Below, piece by piece: positions 9,192 through 20,415 of a DNA stretch of 64,000 nt. Both the position numbers and the translations under genes were made by a program. Each line of letters begins with the position of its first letter. Position 1 is the stretch's first letter. The DNA comes from Isoetes taiwanensis. Its lineage: Eukaryota; Streptophyta; Lycopodiopsida; Isoetales; Isoetaceae. The notes under the pieces were generated by a model. That model ran no database searches and had not been told where the DNA came from. It saw only the letters and a program-made list of their open reading frames with translations. The stretch covers positions 62,001 to 126,000 of the forward strand of contig JAJEKV010000100.1 in NCBI GenBank assembly GCA_021234155.1, written 5' to 3'.

Positions 9192-10460
9192 CTAACTAAA
9201 GCTTTGAGTCCATACTCCACCCATTCTTAACCCGACCTGCAGCAGACCATTCTTATCAGTCAGATCTCCATCTGTTCTTAGCTGAATCCTATGAAAAAAC
9301 CTCCTTAGGGCTTTTTATCCACAAAAACTGTCATCAATCAACGGATCAATCAACGAAGAAAAGGAGATATAACAACACCTTATCCATGATTTTTCTTCTC
9401 TGGATATCGCCCACGTGCCAAGCCCTAAGCCAATCGTGGCATATGCATGCCGATATCAAAGAGGTAGATCGATCTGCAGAAGAAATTTGGAAGGGGAAAA
9501 TCGAAATCGAAATTGTAGCCAAAATATTTTCCTGATTTTTGAAAATCGGATTTTGTTTCCGGTGGTTAAAAGTCCCAAAATCATAGGGAAATCATTAAAA
9601 AATTATTCCAAAAAAGTTTTTCTCCAGACCTGGAAATCCCAAATTAACAAGGTAGATAACGAAGAATTAAAATGCGCGGCTTTGCCTTCTTTTAGTTTAT
9701 CAAAAGATGATTTAAATACATACAGCCTTAGCATTATACATTGAAACATGATAATAGACACATCTAATGTCACATCATGCCATGGAAACTTTGCTTTGAC
9801 TTGGTATCTCCCAGAGCTATCTGGCCATCTACATATGGAAATTATAAGGCTGGGCATTCAGAGTTGGTATGGTGCGAAGCATTAGGAGCAAGAAGTACAT
9901 CAAAAGTTATAGGTGTGAAATGCTTTAAGAAGAAGTTCCTTGATGCTAACATACTTCAATTAGTGAATGAACTTGAAGAAATTCGAATAAAAGTATTAAA
10001 AGTGGAGCAACCCTAAGGGTGCTAATGGTTGCAAAAATAAATTGACATGTGATTTTATTTCTGTGACATTTAAGATTTGAAGATATTTGGTGTAAAGCCT
10101 AGCATTTGAGCTTTATAAAAATTAGTGTTTGCCACAAAGTTAGTTGGAGTCCTTATATTATTGCTAGTGAGAAGTAAATGATATAGAGCATGAATAAATA
10201 TAGAGTATCAATACTACAAAAATGGCCTATTAGATGATGATTTGCCAATTATAATACCCTTTGCATTTGGAAAAATACATTGCGCCCTTTTCTAAGCAAT
10301 CAATATGGAACATGCATTAATTATTTGAGTGCTTTCGATTCATAAGGCTAAATTAATATAATGGCTGTCTATTCATCTTTATTCTCCACCTTCGACTCCA
10401 CATTTATACCAATAAAATGTGCAAATTTTCCACATGCTCAATCCATCCTAGGTTGGCATT
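9192..10460. other. AT-rich gap, one unrecognised short frame
   Basis: Between the CACTA element and the HUH palindrome. The only protein-like reading is the end of a plus-strand frame at 9777-10016 (last part KCFKKKFLDANILQLVNELEE), an amphipathic helix with no family I can name. The rest is AT-rich with no visible feature. Confidence 0.4.
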
Positions 10461-10464
10461 GGCG

Positions 10465-12244
10465 ATGGCTTCGCGTCCGCGTGGAGTGGATGGAGCAGAG
10501 GAGAGCGAGTTCGGGCTTCAGCGGTGCAGTCCGTCGGCATGTCTTCTGGGAGCGACATGTGAGTCTGCTGTTAGTTCGTCAGGGATGTCGTCTGGGAGTG
10601 TCATCTCTTTATATGCTGTTTATTGGCTGTTGTTGCCACCGGTTTTGAAGTCGCCTTCATACTCTGCTCTGGTGAATTAGTGCTGGGATATCAGGATTTT
10701 GTGGCACCTGTCTCCGTTTTGTCCCTGTCTTGTTGTTTCTGCTGCAGTGGACCTGTGCTTTCGGCTCTGGAATTCTGCAATTCAGGTAACATGTTGAAGA
10801 GGGCAGCTAGATGTAGGAAACAAAGCTTGCCTCCTGAAGCAAAATTCCATTGTGTTGAGGATGCTTTCTCTGTGGGGAATATTGTGGGGATGTCTAAGGG
10901 TAGGGGTAGAGTAGAGGGTGAGAATGAGGGCACCGGCCTGTTGGATGTCAGCCTTACTCTGGGTTATGCTGGGACTGATGTTCCCCTTGCCATGTTTGAC
11001 AAACTTATGGATTTCTTGAAGAGCCAGACTGTTGCTGGGGCTGTGGCCCTTGAGAGGGGATCGGACCTGGATCACTTGCACTGCCAGGGAGTGCTGAGGA
11101 CCACGCTGAAGACGCCTGGCCGGCAGGGATCCTTCACATGTGCAAGGCTCTTAAGAATACAAGGACGCATTGTTTTGAGGGGTTAGTCGGATATTGCTTG
11201 AAGGACTTTGGGAAGGTCCACTTCAAAGTCTGTCTGCACAACGTTACTGACAAACAGATCGAAATGGGGAAAGATCTCTATCTGCTTCATGGTGCAGGTG
11301 ACCTGAAGAGCGTTGTCGTCCTGGATAACAAGAACTTATTGCACAGGGCCCATCATTTTGTTAAATACCATGGCAGGAAGCAGGCTGTCTGCCTCCCTCG
11401 TGTACACCGTATGCTGGATGCTCAGGACTGGAAAGTTCATTCTCTCTAGCCAATAGATCTTTCCTACTAACTGTGCGTTTATATCAGAGCATCGGGTGAA
11501 GGCAGCGTGGAGAATAACTCTTAATCCGTCACAAGCCATGCCTAGTGACGTTCGATGTGTGATATTCAATGTCCCTGCAGGTATGCAACCCGTGGAGCGA
11601 TTGGGTAAGGCACGGAAAAGATACTATGACGATACGTGCAGTCCTGGAGATGCGGATGAGGGTTTCGTGGACATTGTTGAGGAGGAATTCAGGCCTGCGA
11701 TGGAGGGGACGTCCGAGCAACCCGATTACATTCCCTTGAATTCTGCTGATTACACGATGGTTGTTAATTGATGGCATGTTTCATTGTTTCATCTTTGCAA
11801 CATGTTTGCTATGTTTGTATACGTTTAATTGCTGCAGGTTTGGAGTACTGATCTCACATGCATGCAGGGACATGCCTGTGCCATTTGCCTCCTACTGCCC
11901 AGGTGGAGAATGGGCAGCAACAAGTGGTGGAATCCCTCGCACCTCTTGATAGGCCTCCTGAACCTGCATTGCCTGAGGCATCCCCTGTTGAAAATCTGAT
12001 TTTCAGCGCCCTCCCACATCCTGCTGTAGCATCTGCAGATGCAGAGCGTGCTCATGTGGCATCTGAGCTACTGACTAGCGTTGTCAACATAAACACCCTT
12101 GCTGAAACAGTTGCAGCCTCTGTGCGTTTGCTTCGCATGCAGTTAGGCCGTCTTTTTCATGAGCTGGAGGACACCATTGGGACTATGGAGTGGGATGAGG
12201 TTGCGGTCTCGGCGAGGGAAAGGCAAGCACTTAGGAGCATATGA
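10465..12244 (+). pseudogene. HUH (Y1) endonuclease, Replitron-like, copy A
   Basis: The frame starts MASRPRGVD (10465), is interrupted by about 370 bp absent from copy B, and resumes at about 10890 with a Gly/Arg-rich stretch. Conserved parts follow: ALERGSDLDHLHCQGVLR carries the HUH motif as His-Leu-His (about 11080), and GYCLKDFGKVHF (about 11190) carries Y-x-x-K, the single catalytic tyrosine. A C-terminal half (YYDDTCSPGDADEG) ends at 11771. Frameshifts near 11110 and 11430 break the gene. Such enzymes nick one strand and bind the 5' end covalently to start rolling-circle replication. A further exon (11840-12244) gives a Pro/Glu-rich linker and a helical tail ending RERQALRSI. Confidence 0.7.
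11840..12244 (+). CDS. C-terminal exon of HUH element copy A
   Basis: An open stretch after a likely acceptor (CTGCAG at about 11835). It runs through QVENGQQQVVESLAPLD, a Pro-rich segment, then helices with SELLTSVVNINTL and LFHELEDTIGTMEWDEVAV. Copy B has the same exon at about 13360-13730 (minus) with mostly conservative differences and the same frame for long stretches, which suggests selection before the copies decayed. The function of the tail is unknown; it may be an oligomerisation or partner-binding part. Whether it is spliced to the HUH part is an inference from position. Confidence 0.5.
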
Positions 12245-12570
12245 ACTTGGCGCGGGCGTTGTTGCTGCGGGAATGAGGCATATAGACAGGTTCATTCTTA
12301 AGCTCTTGCATATATATTCTGCCTCTAACAAGTGCACAGGCATAGGACAGGCTTGCGAGGAGGCATGCACAGGCACTAAATATTAGAACCAATTGATGTG
12401 AACTGTTGTATGATTGAACTTTGGATAATTTTATGTTGCTGTTTTTTCTGTAGTTGCATTGCATGGTCTGCATGCAGCATGAATTGTGCATTTTGAAAAT
12501 TTAAAAAGCTTTCACTGAAATGTCATTGCATTAGCATTTGTATGTTTGAGCATTTGCATGGGACTAGCCC

Positions 12571-12614
12571 CCTGGCATAATGGGGAGCCCTGTGGGGAGC
12601 TCCATTATGCTAGG
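12571..12614. other. Hairpin directly before tRNA-like structure
   Basis: Left arm 12571-12588 (CCTGGCATAATGGGGAGC) pairs with right arm 12599-12614 (GCTCCATTATGCTAGG), with two unpaired bases and one wobble, around a 10-nt loop. It ends exactly where the tRNA-like fold begins and starts at the junction of the palindrome arm with the loop. Confidence 0.65.
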
Positions 12615-12985
12615 CGAAGCATCATGAGACCGGCTTCTGTCGGCGGGGTTCAAATCCCCGTGCTTCGTTATGTTCTTTGTCACTTTCTTTTTCTGGACAG
12701 CATGACAGATCCTGCAGGGAAGCGTATTCTCCAGCAACAATGGAGCTGTTGTACCATGTGGAGGTTGCGGGGTAGGCTGGTCTGCAACCATATATATGCA
12801 GCAGGTTGACCTCATGGGAATACCGCTTCCTCAACCTTTGGATGACGTGGAAATGGGGGTTTGACTCCATCTTGATTTCTGGTGGATGGCTGTGGTTATT
12901 GGGTTTTAGATATGCTTGGGAATATGCTTTGGATGAATGGATAGGATATAGCGATTATAGGATAGAGCGATTATGTATTATATGC
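12574..12985. other. Loop of the HUH palindrome
   Basis: Single-copy spacer between the two inverted HUH arms. It holds the hairpin and tRNA-like structure above, then a segment (about 12836-12960) with GATGACGTGGAAAT, GGGGTTTGAC and repeated AGCGATTATAGGAT. That segment matches 20160-20300, so it is probably the real 3' tail of copy A, kept only on this side. Confidence 0.6.
12615..12667 (+). ncRNA. 53-nt mini-tRNA-like structure (candidate)
   Basis: A 7-bp perfect acceptor-like stem is formed by CGAAGCA (12615-12621) and TGCTTCG (12661-12667). Inside are an 8-nt linker, a 5-bp arm with a 4-nt loop (12630-12643), and a T arm of 5 bp with the canonical loop TTCAAAT (12644-12660), each directly abutting the next. 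D and anticodon arms are missing. The layout resembles compact tRNA-like RNAs such as mammalian mascRNA, probably by convergence, or a class II tRNA that lost its 5' half. Expression and processing by RNase P or Z are untested. Confidence 0.5.
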
Positions 12986-14807
12986 TAGAGGGCTAATCCC
13001 ATGCAAATGCTCAAACATACAAATGTTAATGCAATGACGTCTCAGTGAAAGCTTTTTAAATTTTCAAAATGCACAATTCATGCTGCATGCACACCATGCA
13101 ATGCAACTACAGAAAAAACAGCAACATAAAATATCCAAAGTCCAATCACACAACAGTTCACATCAATTGGTTGTAATATTTAGTGCATGTGCATGCCTCC
13201 TCGCAAGTCTGTCCTATGCCTGGGCACTTGTTAGAGGCAGAATATATAGGAAGGGAAATGCAAGAGCTTAAGAATGAAACCTGTCTATATGCCTCAATTC
13301 CTGCAGCAGCAACGCCCTCGCCAAGTTCATATGTAAGTGCTTGCCTTTCCCTCGCCGAGACCGCAACCTCATCCCACTCCATAGTCCCAATGGTGTCCTC
13401 CAGCTCATGCAAAAGACGGCCTAATCTTAATGCGACCAAACGCACGTAGGCGCAGAATCGCTTTCAAAGAAGGGTGTTTATGTTGACAACACTAGTCAAT
13501 AGCTCAGATGCCACATCAGCACGCTCTGCATCTGCAGATGCTACAGCAGGATGTGGGAGGCCGCTGGAAATCAGATTTTCAACAGGGGATGCCTCAGGCA
13601 ATGCAGGTTCAGGAGGCCCATCAAGAGGTGCGAGGGATTCCACCACTTGTTGTTGCCCATTCTCCACCTGGGCAGCAGGAGGCAATGGCACAGGCATGTC
13701 CCTGCATGCATGTGAGATCAGTACTCCAAACCTGTAGCAATGAAATGAAACGCTTACAAACATAGCAAACATGTTGCAAAGATGAAACAAAGAAACATGC
13801 CATCAATTAACAGCCATCGTGTAATCAGCAGAATTCAAGGGAATATAATCGGGTTGCTCGGACGTCCCCTCCATCGCAGGCCTAAATTCCTCCTCAACAA
13901 TGTCCACGAAACCCTCATCCGCATCTCCAGGACTGCACGCATCGTCATAGTAACTTTTCCGTGTCTTAACCCAATCGCTCCACGGGTTGCATACCTGCAC
14001 GGACATTGAATAGTACACATCGAACGTCACTGGGCTTGTGACGGATTAAGAGTTATTCTCCACGCTGCCTTCACCCGATGTTCTGATATAAACGCACAGT
14101 TAGTAGGCAAATTCCATTGACTAGAGAGAATGAACTTTCCACTCCTGAGCATCCGGCATACAGTGTACACGAGGGAGGCAGACAACTGCTTCCTGCCATG
14201 GTTTTTAACAAAATGATGGGCCCTGTGCAACAAGTTCTTGTTATCCAATATGACAACGCTCTTCAGGTCACCTGCACCATGAAGCAGATAGAGATCTTTG
14301 CCCATCTCGATCTGCTAGTCAGTAACGTTGTGCAGACAAACTTCGAAGTGGACCTTCCCAAAGTCCTTCAAGCAATATCCGACCAACCCCTCAAAACAAT
14401 GCATCCTTATATTCTTAAGAGCCTTAAGAGCTTTGCACATCAGAAGGATCCCTGCCGGCCATTCACGGCATGAGGCGTCTCAGCGTGGTCCTCAGCACTC
14501 CCTGGCAGTGCAAGTGATCCAGGTCCGATCCCCTCTCAAGGGCCACAGCCCAGCAACAGTCTAGGTCCGATCCCCTCTCAAAGGCCACAGCCCAGCACCA
14601 GTCTGGCTCTTCAAGAAATCCACAAGTTTGTCAAACATGGCAAGGGGGATATCAATCCCAGCATAACCCAGAGTAAGGCTGACATCAGAGTAAGGCTGAC
14701 ATCCAACAGGCCGGTGCCCTCATCCTCACCCTCTACTCTACCCCTACCCTTAGACGTCCGCTCCATATTCCCCACATCCACTCCACGCGGACGCGAAGCC
14801 ATCGCCA
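12986..14807 (-). mobile_element. HUH-endonuclease element, right arm of palindrome (copy B)
   Basis: Inverted copy of 10461-12573. It lacks the 370-bp block present near the start of copy A. It also contains a tandem duplication of about 44 bp (GGTCCGATCCCCTCTCAA and following, about 14520-14610) and an 18-bp tandem repeat near 14672-14702. Outside 14807 the flank is unrelated to the flank of copy A, so homology stops just upstream of the start codon in both arms. Confidence 0.7.
13165..14803 (-). pseudogene. HUH (Y1) endonuclease, Replitron-like, copy B
   Basis: Read from the minus strand it starts MASRPRGVD (14803), continues GRGRVEGEDEGTGLLDVSLTL, and keeps the His-Leu-His motif (LERGSDLDHLHCQ, about 14505-14545) and the tyrosine motif with YCLKD (about 14370). 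The C-terminal half ends at about 13803. The C-terminal exon follows at about 13730-13360 with a break between NINTL and RLGRLLHELED. Internal tandem duplications and frameshifts make it non-functional. Motif retention in both copies supports the HUH assignment. Function would be strand nicking for rolling-circle transposition. Confidence 0.68.
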
Positions 14808-17800
14808 CCACACCCCTTCTAAAAACTACAGACAGAAGACCTAACCCAATCGACCATTGCAATCACAAACCCCATTTACTGACGTCAGCATTATAACATT
14901 TCCGCCTACGAATACACCCCAAAACTTTAGGAAATCTTAGGTTATTGCATGCCCAAACAACAATTGCAAAACTTAATGTTGTGAATGGATAATCTGCAAT
15001 ATTTCTTCTGGGCAAAGATACACACAACACGCCAAAATCAACACCGCTTCAATAAGCCAACCATTTTTTGCAATCAATACCCACTTCAGCCTTCCTCTAG
15101 TGGGCACAAATAGTGGTCTGGAAATACATGGATTTAGATGCAGACCTAAAATAACATAATGCGTTTAAAGCCAATAAATGTGTAATTAAACTTCACCTCA
15201 TGTTGAAGCAAAGCATGGGCTTTAGAACCGGCACACATACCTCAAATGAGAGCAGGGAGATGGATAGGCTAACATTCAATAAAATGTAAGTGAACTTCGC
15301 CTTTCATGTTGTTAAGTACTCTGAATCTTGTAAATAGAAATGAAAGCAAGAATGGCAACAAAAATACATCTAACAACAAAACTTCGGTAAATATACCACT
15401 ATCTAATGTAGAAGACAAACATATCTTTATCTTGCCAATTCTAATGTCTTTTGCTCCTCCTGTCGTTTCTGCAACAACAATCTATAAGAAGCAGTTATCA
15501 AATACTCCTACAGAGACTCTGATATCCTTTGCACCTCTTGTCATTTCTGCGACAGCATTCTACAAGTGGCAATTATGAAATAGTCCTACAGATACTTCTA
15601 CAATTATGACATTGCAAGGATCATATACTTCCCATGCGCATTGCTCATTACGTCTTGCAGTCAAGCTATCCACCACAATCCTGGTCCTTGTCCATTTCCG
15701 CACCCATTTTTGTTTCACCAGGCAAGAGTCCATTTTCCAGACTAAATCCTCTAGCATCCCAACTAGACTCCTATATATGAGCTCAAAATGCTCCAATATT
15801 CCCATCTTAAGGTACTTTTTGTTGCCATCCAATTTTCACTTCCTGCACCATAAAATGTATAGATCATATTCAAGGCCATGATCGAAGGAGAGGAGGAGAC
15901 TTTCCACATATATTCCACTTCTAAATGCTTCTACCGACCAAAAGAAGAAATAAACGAAAAAGAAAGAGAATATTTGGGGCCAAGAGAAGGTCGTCAAGTG
16001 CCGGAACAAAGCCTTATAGAAGTCTGTATCTAAACACATTCCAGTATCTAAAATTTTGCCTGAAATTGTGAAGTTATGTCGCTTAATGAAGAAGCAAAGC
16101 CAAATAGAATAACATTTACAAATATGCTCGATGGAAGAGCGAGGCAGACAAAATCATATTTACAAGTGGTTTGGGAGAATGCATACTTGAGGGCACGTAG
16201 GATAATATATTGAAAGCAGGATGAACATATTGGAATAATGGAATCAAGAATTCTCCGTCTCTTCTATGCTGTTTTTGCCCCGTGTATTAGCCGTCACCCT
16301 TGCATAGTCATTAAGCAATGTGCAATAAAAACAGAACACCTAATTCTCTCTGATATCTTCCAGTTCCATTAGCTTCTCAACACCTCTGGCATTTCTCAAC
16401 ACCTCTAGCATTGCAATGGTGTGACACAATGCTAGACAAAGAAGCAAAGCCAAACAAGTGTAGAGTCTCCCTAAATAACTAGAGCAAGAAATAGTTTACG
16501 GGGAGTAGCAGGCACAATTAAGACAGGACATGTCTGAACTCTATCTGATGCTTGATGAAACACCTGTTTGAACTCCGTTTGATAGTGCAACTCAATGAAA
16601 ATGAATGGAATTTAATCTAAACAAAAAATTGACAACATTTGCATTTTGCATGTAGAAATGTAGCATGTGTTCCACACACGCTTATTAGATAGAAGCAAAC
16701 TTAAGAAATAAGGAGAGTCAATATCCAATGGTATCACGATTAGATGCGCTCTGCATCATATAAAATAAGGCTGGGCCTATCTGAACTCTGCCTATTAATC
16801 AACGGAATTTTTGTCTAAACTTTGACTGATAGCTCAATGGAAAATGTTTGATGCCTGGGAATAGACACATCATAACCAATAGGTTGAAAGAACATGTTGA
16901 ACCAAGACTCTAAGAATGGTCAGAGGCATAGAATTGAAATGCTGAAAAGACTAAGCACACATTGAAAGTTGCATCTCAGTTTCCATGAATCGTTAGAAGT
17001 ATCTCAAACAACGCGGTTTCTCTCCAATAGTCGAAAATTTATTTTGTGCCCTTACCCTTTGCATTGGCCAGAGTTCTCCTCTATGAAAACATCCAGATAT
17101 ACAATGTATGAAGCCTGCAATACGATTATATCATTTATATCTATTCTAGAAGCAGGAAGGAAGCTAAAGTTTTATTACTGTGTAACTTATAAACATTAAC
17201 ACACCAGTGGGGCAGATACGCAAGGAGATTAGTTGATGTTTGCACTAATGACAAAAAAGTTGACATGCAAATGTGAAATTATTGCCCTGCGTGTCCTGTC
17301 CTTGGATTTCTTATATTATTTATTATCTGAATGGTGATTGAATCATATTTATCCCTGGGAATAAGGTATAGGTAGCACACTCTTCATGTATAGGGGAGGA
17401 AAAACAGTTGAAAAGGGATTGAATGGGACTGCATGAACAGAAGAAATGTACGAAACTGACGGAGCGAGCAATTAAAACCTCGTTTAAAATGTGAATCTAT
17501 TCATCAATATTTCAGCAGCCAAATTTGCAAAATGCAGCATGGCTAGACATAGGATTCAAGCTGCCTATAGCATTTAGATCCATTTTCCTTAATGTTATTG
17601 AAGCAGGAGGAAAGCAATTTTCCTGACTAAAATGAACTCCTGCTTATTTGAAATGTGATAAAAGCAAGTATATGAAGCTCCCAATTTGCTAAATGCATTT
17701 TGGCAATTTGCCACGGCATTTTTCAGGATGCATTCTCTCCTCTGGTAACCATGGCATTGAGCTGCTAAAAGCCATATCTATCTATATTCAAGAAAGCAAA

Positions 17801-18349: not shown

Positions 18350-19320
18350 GCCTTTACCCTAGATGGAGAAATTCTTAGATCTAAGGCCTGGAATTCATTT
18401 AAGCTGAGGTGGCTTGCTACGTGGATGGCCTAAAAAACCAGAAAATTTTGAGGATTGCTAGAGTTCATGGTAATTTTCCGAACCAAGATTAACTATGTCA
18501 TTGAATGATGACAATTTATGAGGACTAATTCTCGGAGTATTAAATAAAAGAAAAACTACCAAAATACTCTTATAAGTTTTGGTAATTAAATATTACCATA
18601 TTACACTTGGCTCAACTAAGTACATTGTATAGGAATAAAATATGAACAAATTATCACTTTGCCCCTACATATGGTTCCCAAAGACAAGATTAGTAGACGG
18701 AAACATTTGGTATAGTCTTCCACACTCAGAAGAATCTCTAATGAATTGCTCTACATATCCAATCAATGATGTGTTGCTGAACCAAGCAAATCTCTAGTAG
18801 TGTCTCCACTAGCCTTTCTTTATATAATGACATTACCTCTTGCGTATCAACTTCCAAACTTCCACGCCTTTAGAGTAGGCATATCTCTAGCCCTCTAGCA
18901 ACCATGCATTTAGGACTCAGTTAAATGCCCAAACCCGAGCCCAAACCTTTGTCCTAAAAACTTACATGTAACTGAGCAAAACCTAATGAACTCTTATATC
19001 CAAAGTGGTCAAGTAGATTTGGTTAAGGTTTGAAAGCTTCTAAGGTTTGACTAAATGTTATAATCTTTGCCACCTGAACTTTCTTACATTTGATTAACCC
19101 TTTATTTGTATTCTTTTAAGTATTATGTCACTTAATTAGGTTTCCAAAAGGTTGTTGGGGGGTCGTGTAACATAAGATTTTGCAAGGTTTAGCCATGTAT
19201 TCGTATCTAAAAATCGTATTTTGCTGACTCACAAATGTGGGTTTGGTTTGGCAATGGTCGAATGGGGTGTATTGGTGTTTTTGGGCAAGGGTTAATTTTT
19301 AGAAGTTTCCATGCAATTTA
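18350..19320. other. AT-rich gap
   Basis: No gene or clear repeat seen. A long AT-rich stretch between the eEF1A pseudogene and the tail-type element at 19.3 kb. Confidence 0.4.
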
Positions 19321-19658
19321 GGGTTTGCTATTTAGGGAGGGCGGCGTGGATATGGCGGTGGGGTTTCGCCAAAGACCGGATGCAGAAGAAGCAATGACGA
19401 TTGTGAGCAGGTGTCAGCTCTTTTAGTTTCAGCAGAGACCGGATTACTGTTACCAGAAACGGAGTTCTTAAGGAAGGCGGTTCCTGCGGATGATGCCTTC
19501 TTGCTGCACAATGTGGAAAAGCGAGATTGTTGCATGATTTTTCCTGCATCAGAGCGAGATTGTTGCATGATTCTTGTTGCCTCTAGCATGTATCAAGCTC
19601 TGAGGAAGCGGATTCATTGCTTTTCATGGGAAGGCATTGGTACTGCCGTCTCATAGCA

Positions 19659-19675
19659 GGGGGTTCAAATCCCCA
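19659..19675 (+). other. tRNA T-arm-like hairpin 1
   Basis: GGGGG, loop TTCAAAT, CCCC-A, followed by TTCTTATG. It is preceded by a weak CTGC/GCAG arm. It matches the tRNA B-box consensus (GGTTCAAATCC). No complete acceptor stem found. Confidence 0.55.
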
Positions 19676-19834
19676 TTCTTATGGCTGTTTGTTTTGTCCA
19701 TTTTCAGATTCTTATGGCTGGATGTCGTATAGATGAGCATGTGCTTGTGAATGACACAGAGGATTCTGTATGTGTTCTTGCAATTTTTTGTAGTGTTCTT
19801 AAGCAGGTTCCCATTCACATCTGACATTCTGGTG

Positions 19835-19865
19835 CCGATTGAGATCGGTGGGGTTCAAATCCCCA
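19835..19865 (+). other. Variable-arm plus T-arm-like double hairpin 2
   Basis: CCGAT, loop TGAG, ATCGG (19835-19848) is followed directly by TGGGG, loop TTCAAAT, CCCCA (19849-19865). This is the same architecture (5-bp arm with 4-nt loop, then T arm) as at 12630-12660, with different stem bases, so the pairs have co-varied. The 3' strand TTCTTAG follows but no matching 5' acceptor strand is seen. Confidence 0.6.
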
Positions 19866-20415
19866 TTCTTAGATGCAAACATGTGTATGGAAATAAGTTG
19901 TCCTGTTCTATTTTGAAGCGGTGTGTGCATGAGCATGTTCTTCTGTAGTTCAGAGGACGGCTTTGTGGCATGCAAAGGCTTCTTCTTATCTGTTGTTGTG
20001 GTGTGACCAGCTAGTTTTGTAAGTGCAGAGGCTTCTTCAAGAGCTCCTCCTGCACAGCAGCAATGGAGGTTGCAGAGTCTCTTTGGATTACATCTTTGCT
20101 TCTTTCTTACTGTTGTTGTGTATGTACTTGGTTGACTTAAATGGAATACGTTGTAGTGAACCTTAGGATGACGTGGAAATTGGGGTTTGACCCCATCTTG
20201 ACTTGCAAGGGACGGCTGCATTTTGTGCATTGGGAATATCACATGGAATATTCACATAATCAATGGTCGAGATTTAGCGATTATAGGATTTAGCGATTTA
20301 ACTATTTCACACGAAACTCAAGATCTACAAAATTAGCGGCAATAAGAGATATAAAGCTCATTTTCTGGGTTGCCCGAAAGGCAGACCCTTGAAAAGGTAG
20401 GTTGATTGAATATTA

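Follow-up and report, generated by a model that had tools for sequence, protein, structure and literature searches.

Positions 10460-14973 of a 64-kb stretch of contig JAJEKV010000100.1 from Isoetes taiwanensis (the window; coordinates are window positions unless a locus, L, or a contig, C, is named) hold two damaged copies of a Replitron, a HUH-endonuclease transposon reportedly described in Craig 2023, joined tail to tail. On balance, we think it probable that this palindrome is a degenerate inverted dimer that was inserted as a unit and arose when HUH-driven copying switched strands or folded back at the 3' end. The joined flanks of the dimer matched contig C996 (96% over query positions 50-320), where the unoccupied junction reads GGCATTAATGTTG; the window reads GGCAT, then the insert (10460-14973), then TAATGTTG. 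The insert occupies a single position, CACAACATTA^ATGCC, with one ambiguous base, and the target was neither duplicated nor lost. In the empty site, the left host flank (10300-10459) joins directly to the sequence from 14974 onward. On the minus strand the element begins directly after ATTA, and this target tetranucleotide (14974-14977), which adjoins the 5' terminus, is present in the empty site. A third and more distant locus, on contig C907 (L081), has the same unoccupied junction, with other insertions nearby. Because C996 and C907 place 10460-14973 at one position without duplication or loss, these sequence comparisons indicate that the dimer most likely went in as a single unit, and we infer that C996 is the ancestral empty site rather than the result of a precise excision. 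Contig C996 also has a separate ~2-kb stretch (L080, 232-2264) that is absent from the window and lies ~110 bp left of the empty site.

The inverted arms described in the first-pass annotation are real. Eighteen of 19 inverted pairs linked both arms with 92-100% complementarity (10460-12579 versus 12981-14807), and the 19th (72%) is a small self-palindrome within the right arm. The aligned arms differed at 109 of 1733 positions (6.3%; 63 transitions and 46 transversions), and the left-arm stretch 10493-10870 had no counterpart in the right arm. Including the two of the window itself, 40 matches to a 240-nt core were scored genome-wide; together with the ~1.7-kb alignment, these matches exclude a chance origin of the inverted arms. 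The limits of the arms fared differently. We compared the window with 18 further loci of the same genome, several of which are themselves truncated at one or both ends; two pairs of them, L010/L024 and L015/L016, have common flanks and each represent a single insertion in duplicate. This comparison identified the arm limits as truncation points, and we dropped them as element ends; the shared start 4 nt before the ATG, which had been read as the point where homology begins, is a mere cut-off point of the left copy. The loop (12574-12973) had to be abandoned as a separate spacer: family homology of the left copy continues to ~12982, so that the loop is the left copy's own 3' part.

By comparison with the family, the palindrome is one 5'-truncated copy and one 3'-truncated copy, tail to tail. 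The left copy (10460-12973, plus strand), the antisense member of the dimer, is 5'-truncated at 10460 and has a complete 3' end, GCGATTA; its true 3' terminus is formed by the terminal tandem repeat AGGATATAGCGATTATAGGATAGAGCGATTA at 12943-12973. The right copy (12977-14973, minus strand), the sense member, has a complete 5' end, with the family 5' end reached at 14973/14977. It is truncated near 12977-12990, lacks ~400 nt of its 3' tail and has internal deletions. The junction between the two (12974-12976) was read by eye, and a few of its bases are ambiguous.

The proposed Replitron-like HUH identity was borne out by a profile search of the window fragments, which matched Pfam PF21859 (Replitron_HUH). 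Fragment P0002 scored 37.3 bits (E-value 4.1e-9), over the cut-off of 28.5, and fragment P0001 scored 25.8 bits (E-value 1.4e-5), below it. Both genes are broken, as had been noted: the motifs DHLHCQG and GYCLKD are readable in both arms, yet in different frames within each arm, and the HUH domain of the left copy lies at 10971-11281 (plus strand). In L046, a copy of the window's family, both motifs lie in one frame, and the same-family copy C1064, which is also among the matches to the 240-nt core, has an open HUH frame of 362 aa that scored 75.5 bits with Replitron_HUH. Scoring 150 of 2165 first-look candidates from this genome gave at least 150 Replitron_HUH matches, all over the cut-off and many with open frames; the same search gave matches in none of 14 control genomes. 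According to the part of PMC10741241 that we consulted, Replitrons have short direct terminal repeats (5-11 bp), target-site duplications of 2-8 bp and a length of 0.9-4 kb, and are hosted by green algae, liverworts, mosses, lycophytes and ferns. The element studied here resembles them in its HUH domain with HLH and Y-x-x-K motifs, its size (~2.7 kb), its lack of terminal inverted repeats, an ATTA ahead of the 5' end and often at the 3' end as well, and its shorter derivatives without the gene. As judged from sequence, its domain, motifs, size and absence of inverted ends make it a Replitron, and its direct repeats and duplications fit only partly.

The genome search, which the first-pass annotation had put forward as a means to define true ends and target sites, yielded a 5' end, a 3' end and an ATTA target, and showed the ends given in that annotation to be wrong. 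Copies without the gene measure ~1-1.4 kb and, like the full element, fall within the length range of Replitrons. The family 3' end is the same tandem repeat that closes the left copy at 12973. Comparing copies by eye, we observed no terminal inverted repeats: the 5' end reads (ATTA)AGTT..TTGTTTGGG and the 3' end ..AGCGATTA. The two ends have only the 4 bp of ATTA in common, and the ATTA on the 5' side is target sequence. Twenty-one of 24 5' termini in L009-L039 were preceded by ATTA, two by ATCA and one by CTTA, in a count by one sequence pattern that includes duplicates of one insertion and internal copies and excludes non-fitting termini. Sixteen of 20 ends compared, several of them truncated, shared no 8-mer, and among the other 4 only the 11-mer of L014 abuts both ends; in L014, CTACGTATTAG flanks both sides (around 1151 and after 4012) of a copy with a shortened tail. 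L030, a copy without the gene, has two unoccupied counterparts, reading CTATTA^GAGTC on C1044 and TTGTCAGAGTC on C1026, with ATTA before the insertion point in one of the two. The filled site starts after ATTA and ends with a T/A-rich stretch and then ATTA. L030 therefore has ATTA on both sides; the dimer, whose 3' end is aberrant, shows no target-site duplication. We looked for an empty site of the L010/L024/L028 group and found none, and a search for an unoccupied copy of L036 gave no full match.

Other copies in the genome showed further arrangements. L012 (785-1138) is a head-to-tail cluster in which one element's tail precedes a 5'-truncated piece and, after that, a fuller copy. In L021 (1561-4004), an inverted part of the gene precedes a tail that points the other way and does not overlap it, an arrangement resembling a 5' inversion. 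A ~63-nt piece of the 5' terminus lies inside the HUH gene in L011 (2639-2701), L029 (1735-1797) and L019 (2551-2616); the gene matches overlap by ~15-17 nt on either side of the piece, which in L011 and L029 also follows ATTA. The window itself has a second Replitron relative at 19135-20299 (plus strand, ~1.16 kb) with the same type of 5' and 3' termini and two T-arm motifs, in which DNA comparison revealed no HUH match. We also considered a long interspersed nuclear element (LINE)-like element moved by reverse transcription, given the 5' truncation, the tandem-repeat tail and the inversion-like L021. This was dropped because the gene encodes a HUH protein and because insertion occurred after ATTA without a long duplication at two sites with unoccupied copies.

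A topology similar to that of the window dimer was found at two other loci. L027, chosen because its tail matches lay in opposite orientations, has other breakpoints and consists of a 5'-truncated copy with the exact 3' terminus joined to a copy with the canonical 5' end and a damaged tail. L085, initially recorded as L051, represents a different HUH lineage and has arms of 1678 bp that are 96.7% alike and have the same 5' start; one copy lacks ~1.26 kb before the junction, and its terminal repeat is seemingly kept. In both L027 and L085, the sense copy has a damaged 3' part and meets the antisense copy at, or close to, the latter's 3' terminus. Self-comparison of 51 loci, a test that detects only overlapping inverted parts, gave inverted matches of at least 120 bp in L027, L051 and L048. 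L048 has further inverted repeats downstream of its HUH gene (261-1413).

The clean 5' end after ATTA, the 3' terminus at the junction and the ragged far end suggest HUH chemistry that anchors the 5' end first, while at the 3' end the strand switches or folds back; we infer a single-stranded intermediate. In minus-strand terms, one copy would have been joined to the target by its canonical 5' end, just after ATTA, and the copied strand would run through this first element in sense. Near the element's 3' end, in or near a long hairpin, it would cross over to the complementary strand of a closely related copy, entering that copy precisely at its 3' terminus. The strand would then run backwards and be joined to the target after loss of the second copy's 5' end. 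The ~63-nt pieces of the 5' terminus inside the gene in L011, L029 and L019 would look as if left by aborted insertion.

Several observations weigh against dimer formation by this route. The window flanks differed from C996 at 13 of 735 aligned positions (1.8%, over three stretches, with 12 window positions falling in two of them), and the arms differed significantly more (6.3%; Fisher p 4e-7). Because the arms differ 3.5 times more than the flanks differ from the empty site, identical arms at insertion are unlikely. With C996 as the ancestral state, the arms would probably have been unlike from the time of insertion, which speaks against the simple folding back of a single molecule. The argument for unlike arms would be weaker if the element mutates faster, if the flanks are constrained or if C996 arose by precise excision. 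The earlier suggestion of a by-product of HUH replication agrees with the empty site, which fits insertion as a unit, and with the similar topology at two loci, but, given this divergence, a hairpin intermediate from one molecule is not supported. Unlike the window dimer, L085 has a complete 5' end on both arms and needs a different joining of its far end. Insertion of the 5' end first does not by itself explain copies with an intact tail and no 5' end. No empty site was found for L027 when we looked for one. An inverted HUH partner was present in 1 of 14 HUH loci (L051; 13 of the 14 were picked for long open frames), and an inverted self-match of at least 120 bp in none of 18 family loci; on these counts, dimers are a minority product. 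A genome-wide pattern search that allowed no mismatch and was aimed at pairs of intact, opposed 3' termini no more than 30 nt apart gave 0 hits, against 1 for its reversed-pattern control; the L085 junction is off this pattern by one base.

Among the alternatives to a strand switch or fold-back, two independent insertions come first, and we consider them rather unlikely. The second element would have entered the tail of the first in inverse orientation, and the first element's tail and the second's 5' end would then have been lost. The tails contain several ATTA sites, and L012, with another element's tail directly before a 5'-truncated copy, demonstrates that neighbouring insertions occur. 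The rest of the first tail would be expected beyond the second copy, but the flank follows there without a base lost or gained relative to the empty site, and two insertions would therefore need a deletion ending exactly at the boundary of element and flank. In L085, too, the outer bases (~120 on each side) resemble the host array and not an element tail. We regard as unlikely an older origin at another site, in which a dimer born with identical arms accumulated differences before it moved as a unit to its present place. Such a history would account for arms that look older than the insertion, and a tree of the 3' part (18 rows; L009, L018 and L020, short or interrupted, left out) united the four arms of the window and L027 dimers in one clade (100/100). 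The outer end of the left copy, however, is no canonical terminus, and the window and L027 dimers differ in junctions and breakpoints. The L027 arms pair in the same tree (87/86), favouring a separate origin; the window arms do not resolve as a pair there, and the core-region tree, with 23 rows and without the L027 arms, pairs them (87/81).

Still lower we place an inverted duplication of a single inserted Replitron by the host, through break-induced or replication-fork template switching, an improbable origin in our view. Fold-back duplications are a known outcome of host repair, but the left copy meets its partner precisely with its 3' terminus, and the junctions of L027 and L085 fall on a 3' terminus or close by; such positions point to element ends rather than random breaks; the excess of arm over flank divergence also disagrees with this origin. 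An assembly or sequencing artefact is very improbable, since a fold-back chimera, although palindromes are a known artefact class, should have near-identical arms, whereas the arms differ by 6.3% in the window, 5.4% in L027 and ~3% in L085, with length differences, and the flanks run on both sides as in the unoccupied copies.

Folding of the left copy's tail gives, in order, a long hairpin, an acceptor-like stem, a small hairpin and a T-arm. The long hairpin (12571-12614, plus strand), which lies mostly in the former loop, has a 15-bp stem and 3 inner pairs; the tRNA-like structure behind it (12615-12667, plus strand) has a 7-bp acceptor-like stem, the small middle hairpin and a 5-bp T-arm with a TTCAAAT loop. 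The architecture, but not homology, is that of the mascRNA and MEN-beta tRNA-like RNAs. The Rfam family mascRNA-menRNA (RF01684) aligned over its full model at 12615-12667 with 23.1 bits (E-value 0.22), below its gathering score of 42.5, and was not among the matches up to E 2 in 8 other loci, and we dropped mascRNA homology; 4 of these 8 loci instead weakly matched the T-arm end of tmRNA. A tRNA gene was also dropped, as ARAGORN found none.

To build a structure model, we aligned 15 sequences, 11 of the window family and 4 from other Replitron lineages. In this alignment 93.3% of cells pair, with 33 two-sided changes (shuffled mean 11.4) in 9 pairs (shuffled mean 6.1; 7 of 500 shuffles as high), and the 27 further pair types were no higher than in shuffled alignments (28.3). 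Fitting the model to 28 sources that had matched earlier gave 28 matches (27 sources matched, L027 twice and L035 not at the cut-off). Here 91.6% of cells pair and 90 two-sided changes were counted (shuffled mean 36.6); the number of pairs with two-sided changes (11; mean 9.4; 80 of 500 shuffles) and of pair types (36; mean 36.6) was not unusual. Related sequences inflate these covariation counts, and the 28-match alignment leans towards the model. We also read 851 nt of each of 20 further HUH loci (L060-L079, in list order of Replitron_HUH matches, skipping loci already used and two others). Ten had strong matches (E-value at most 1.7e-9), all of them downstream of the HUH gene and on its strand, and the other 10 had no strong match within those 851 nt. 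Among L040-L059, 5 of 20 loci matched the model (four are training loci and one is cut by the locus end); up to E 1, no match was found in the other 15, including L046 of the window's family, or in L009, L015, L016, L020 and L025. In the 64-kb window, the model matched only this tail, its mirror and, more weakly, two places inside 19135-20299. Lineages with a structure match have HUH domains similar to one another and to that of the window family, and none of the remaining lineages that were read gave a match. Copies without the gene retain the T-arm, often without an acceptor stem recognisable by eye, which favours a role of the structure in cis over a role in translation. The tRNA-like structure may act as RNA in 3'-end processing, as an RNA polymerase III B box or as folded DNA.

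The dimer and its target can be set beside two known systems. Single-tyrosine HUH elements of the IS200/IS605 group insert directly 3' of a fixed tetranucleotide without target-site duplication, as does the dimer; unlike those elements, the Replitron is eukaryotic, and its cleavage and single-strand intermediate are putative. In parvoviruses, rolling-hairpin replication by the HUH protein Rep is expected to give inverted dimers joined through one terminus. A HUH enzyme and an inverted dimer of this kind are found here too, whereas the Replitron has no palindromic terminal repeats and the window arms were probably not identical at insertion. The tail-to-tail dimers and the hairpin with its tRNA-like structure set the element apart from Replitrons as described in the consulted part of PMC10741241, where neither is mentioned. 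At the level of titles and abstracts, the literature on HUH elements with tRNA-like structures, mascRNA in plants or transposable elements, Helitron tail-to-tail forms and rolling hairpins contained no such report; dimers or tRNA-like structure may have been reported earlier elsewhere.

Overall, our analysis leads to a more general and tentative proposal, which we hold to be possible but doubtful. Some Replitrons could move via linear single strands, anchored at the 5' end, in which strand switching at the 3' end is regular and yields 3'-3' inverted dimers, and one lineage could carry a structured 3' element, the long hairpin and tRNA-like fold, that mobility or formation of the transcript's 3' end requires in cis. 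If true, this would be a eukaryotic transposon counterpart of rolling-hairpin replication. To our knowledge, the replication mode of eukaryotic HUH transposons is poorly understood, and an inverted dimer whose empty site is clean may be the relic of an abnormal intermediate. The dimer points to insertion of the 5' end first, directly after ATTA, with error-prone 3' ends, and in the covarying tRNA-like structure downstream of the HUH gene the element offers something concrete to test.

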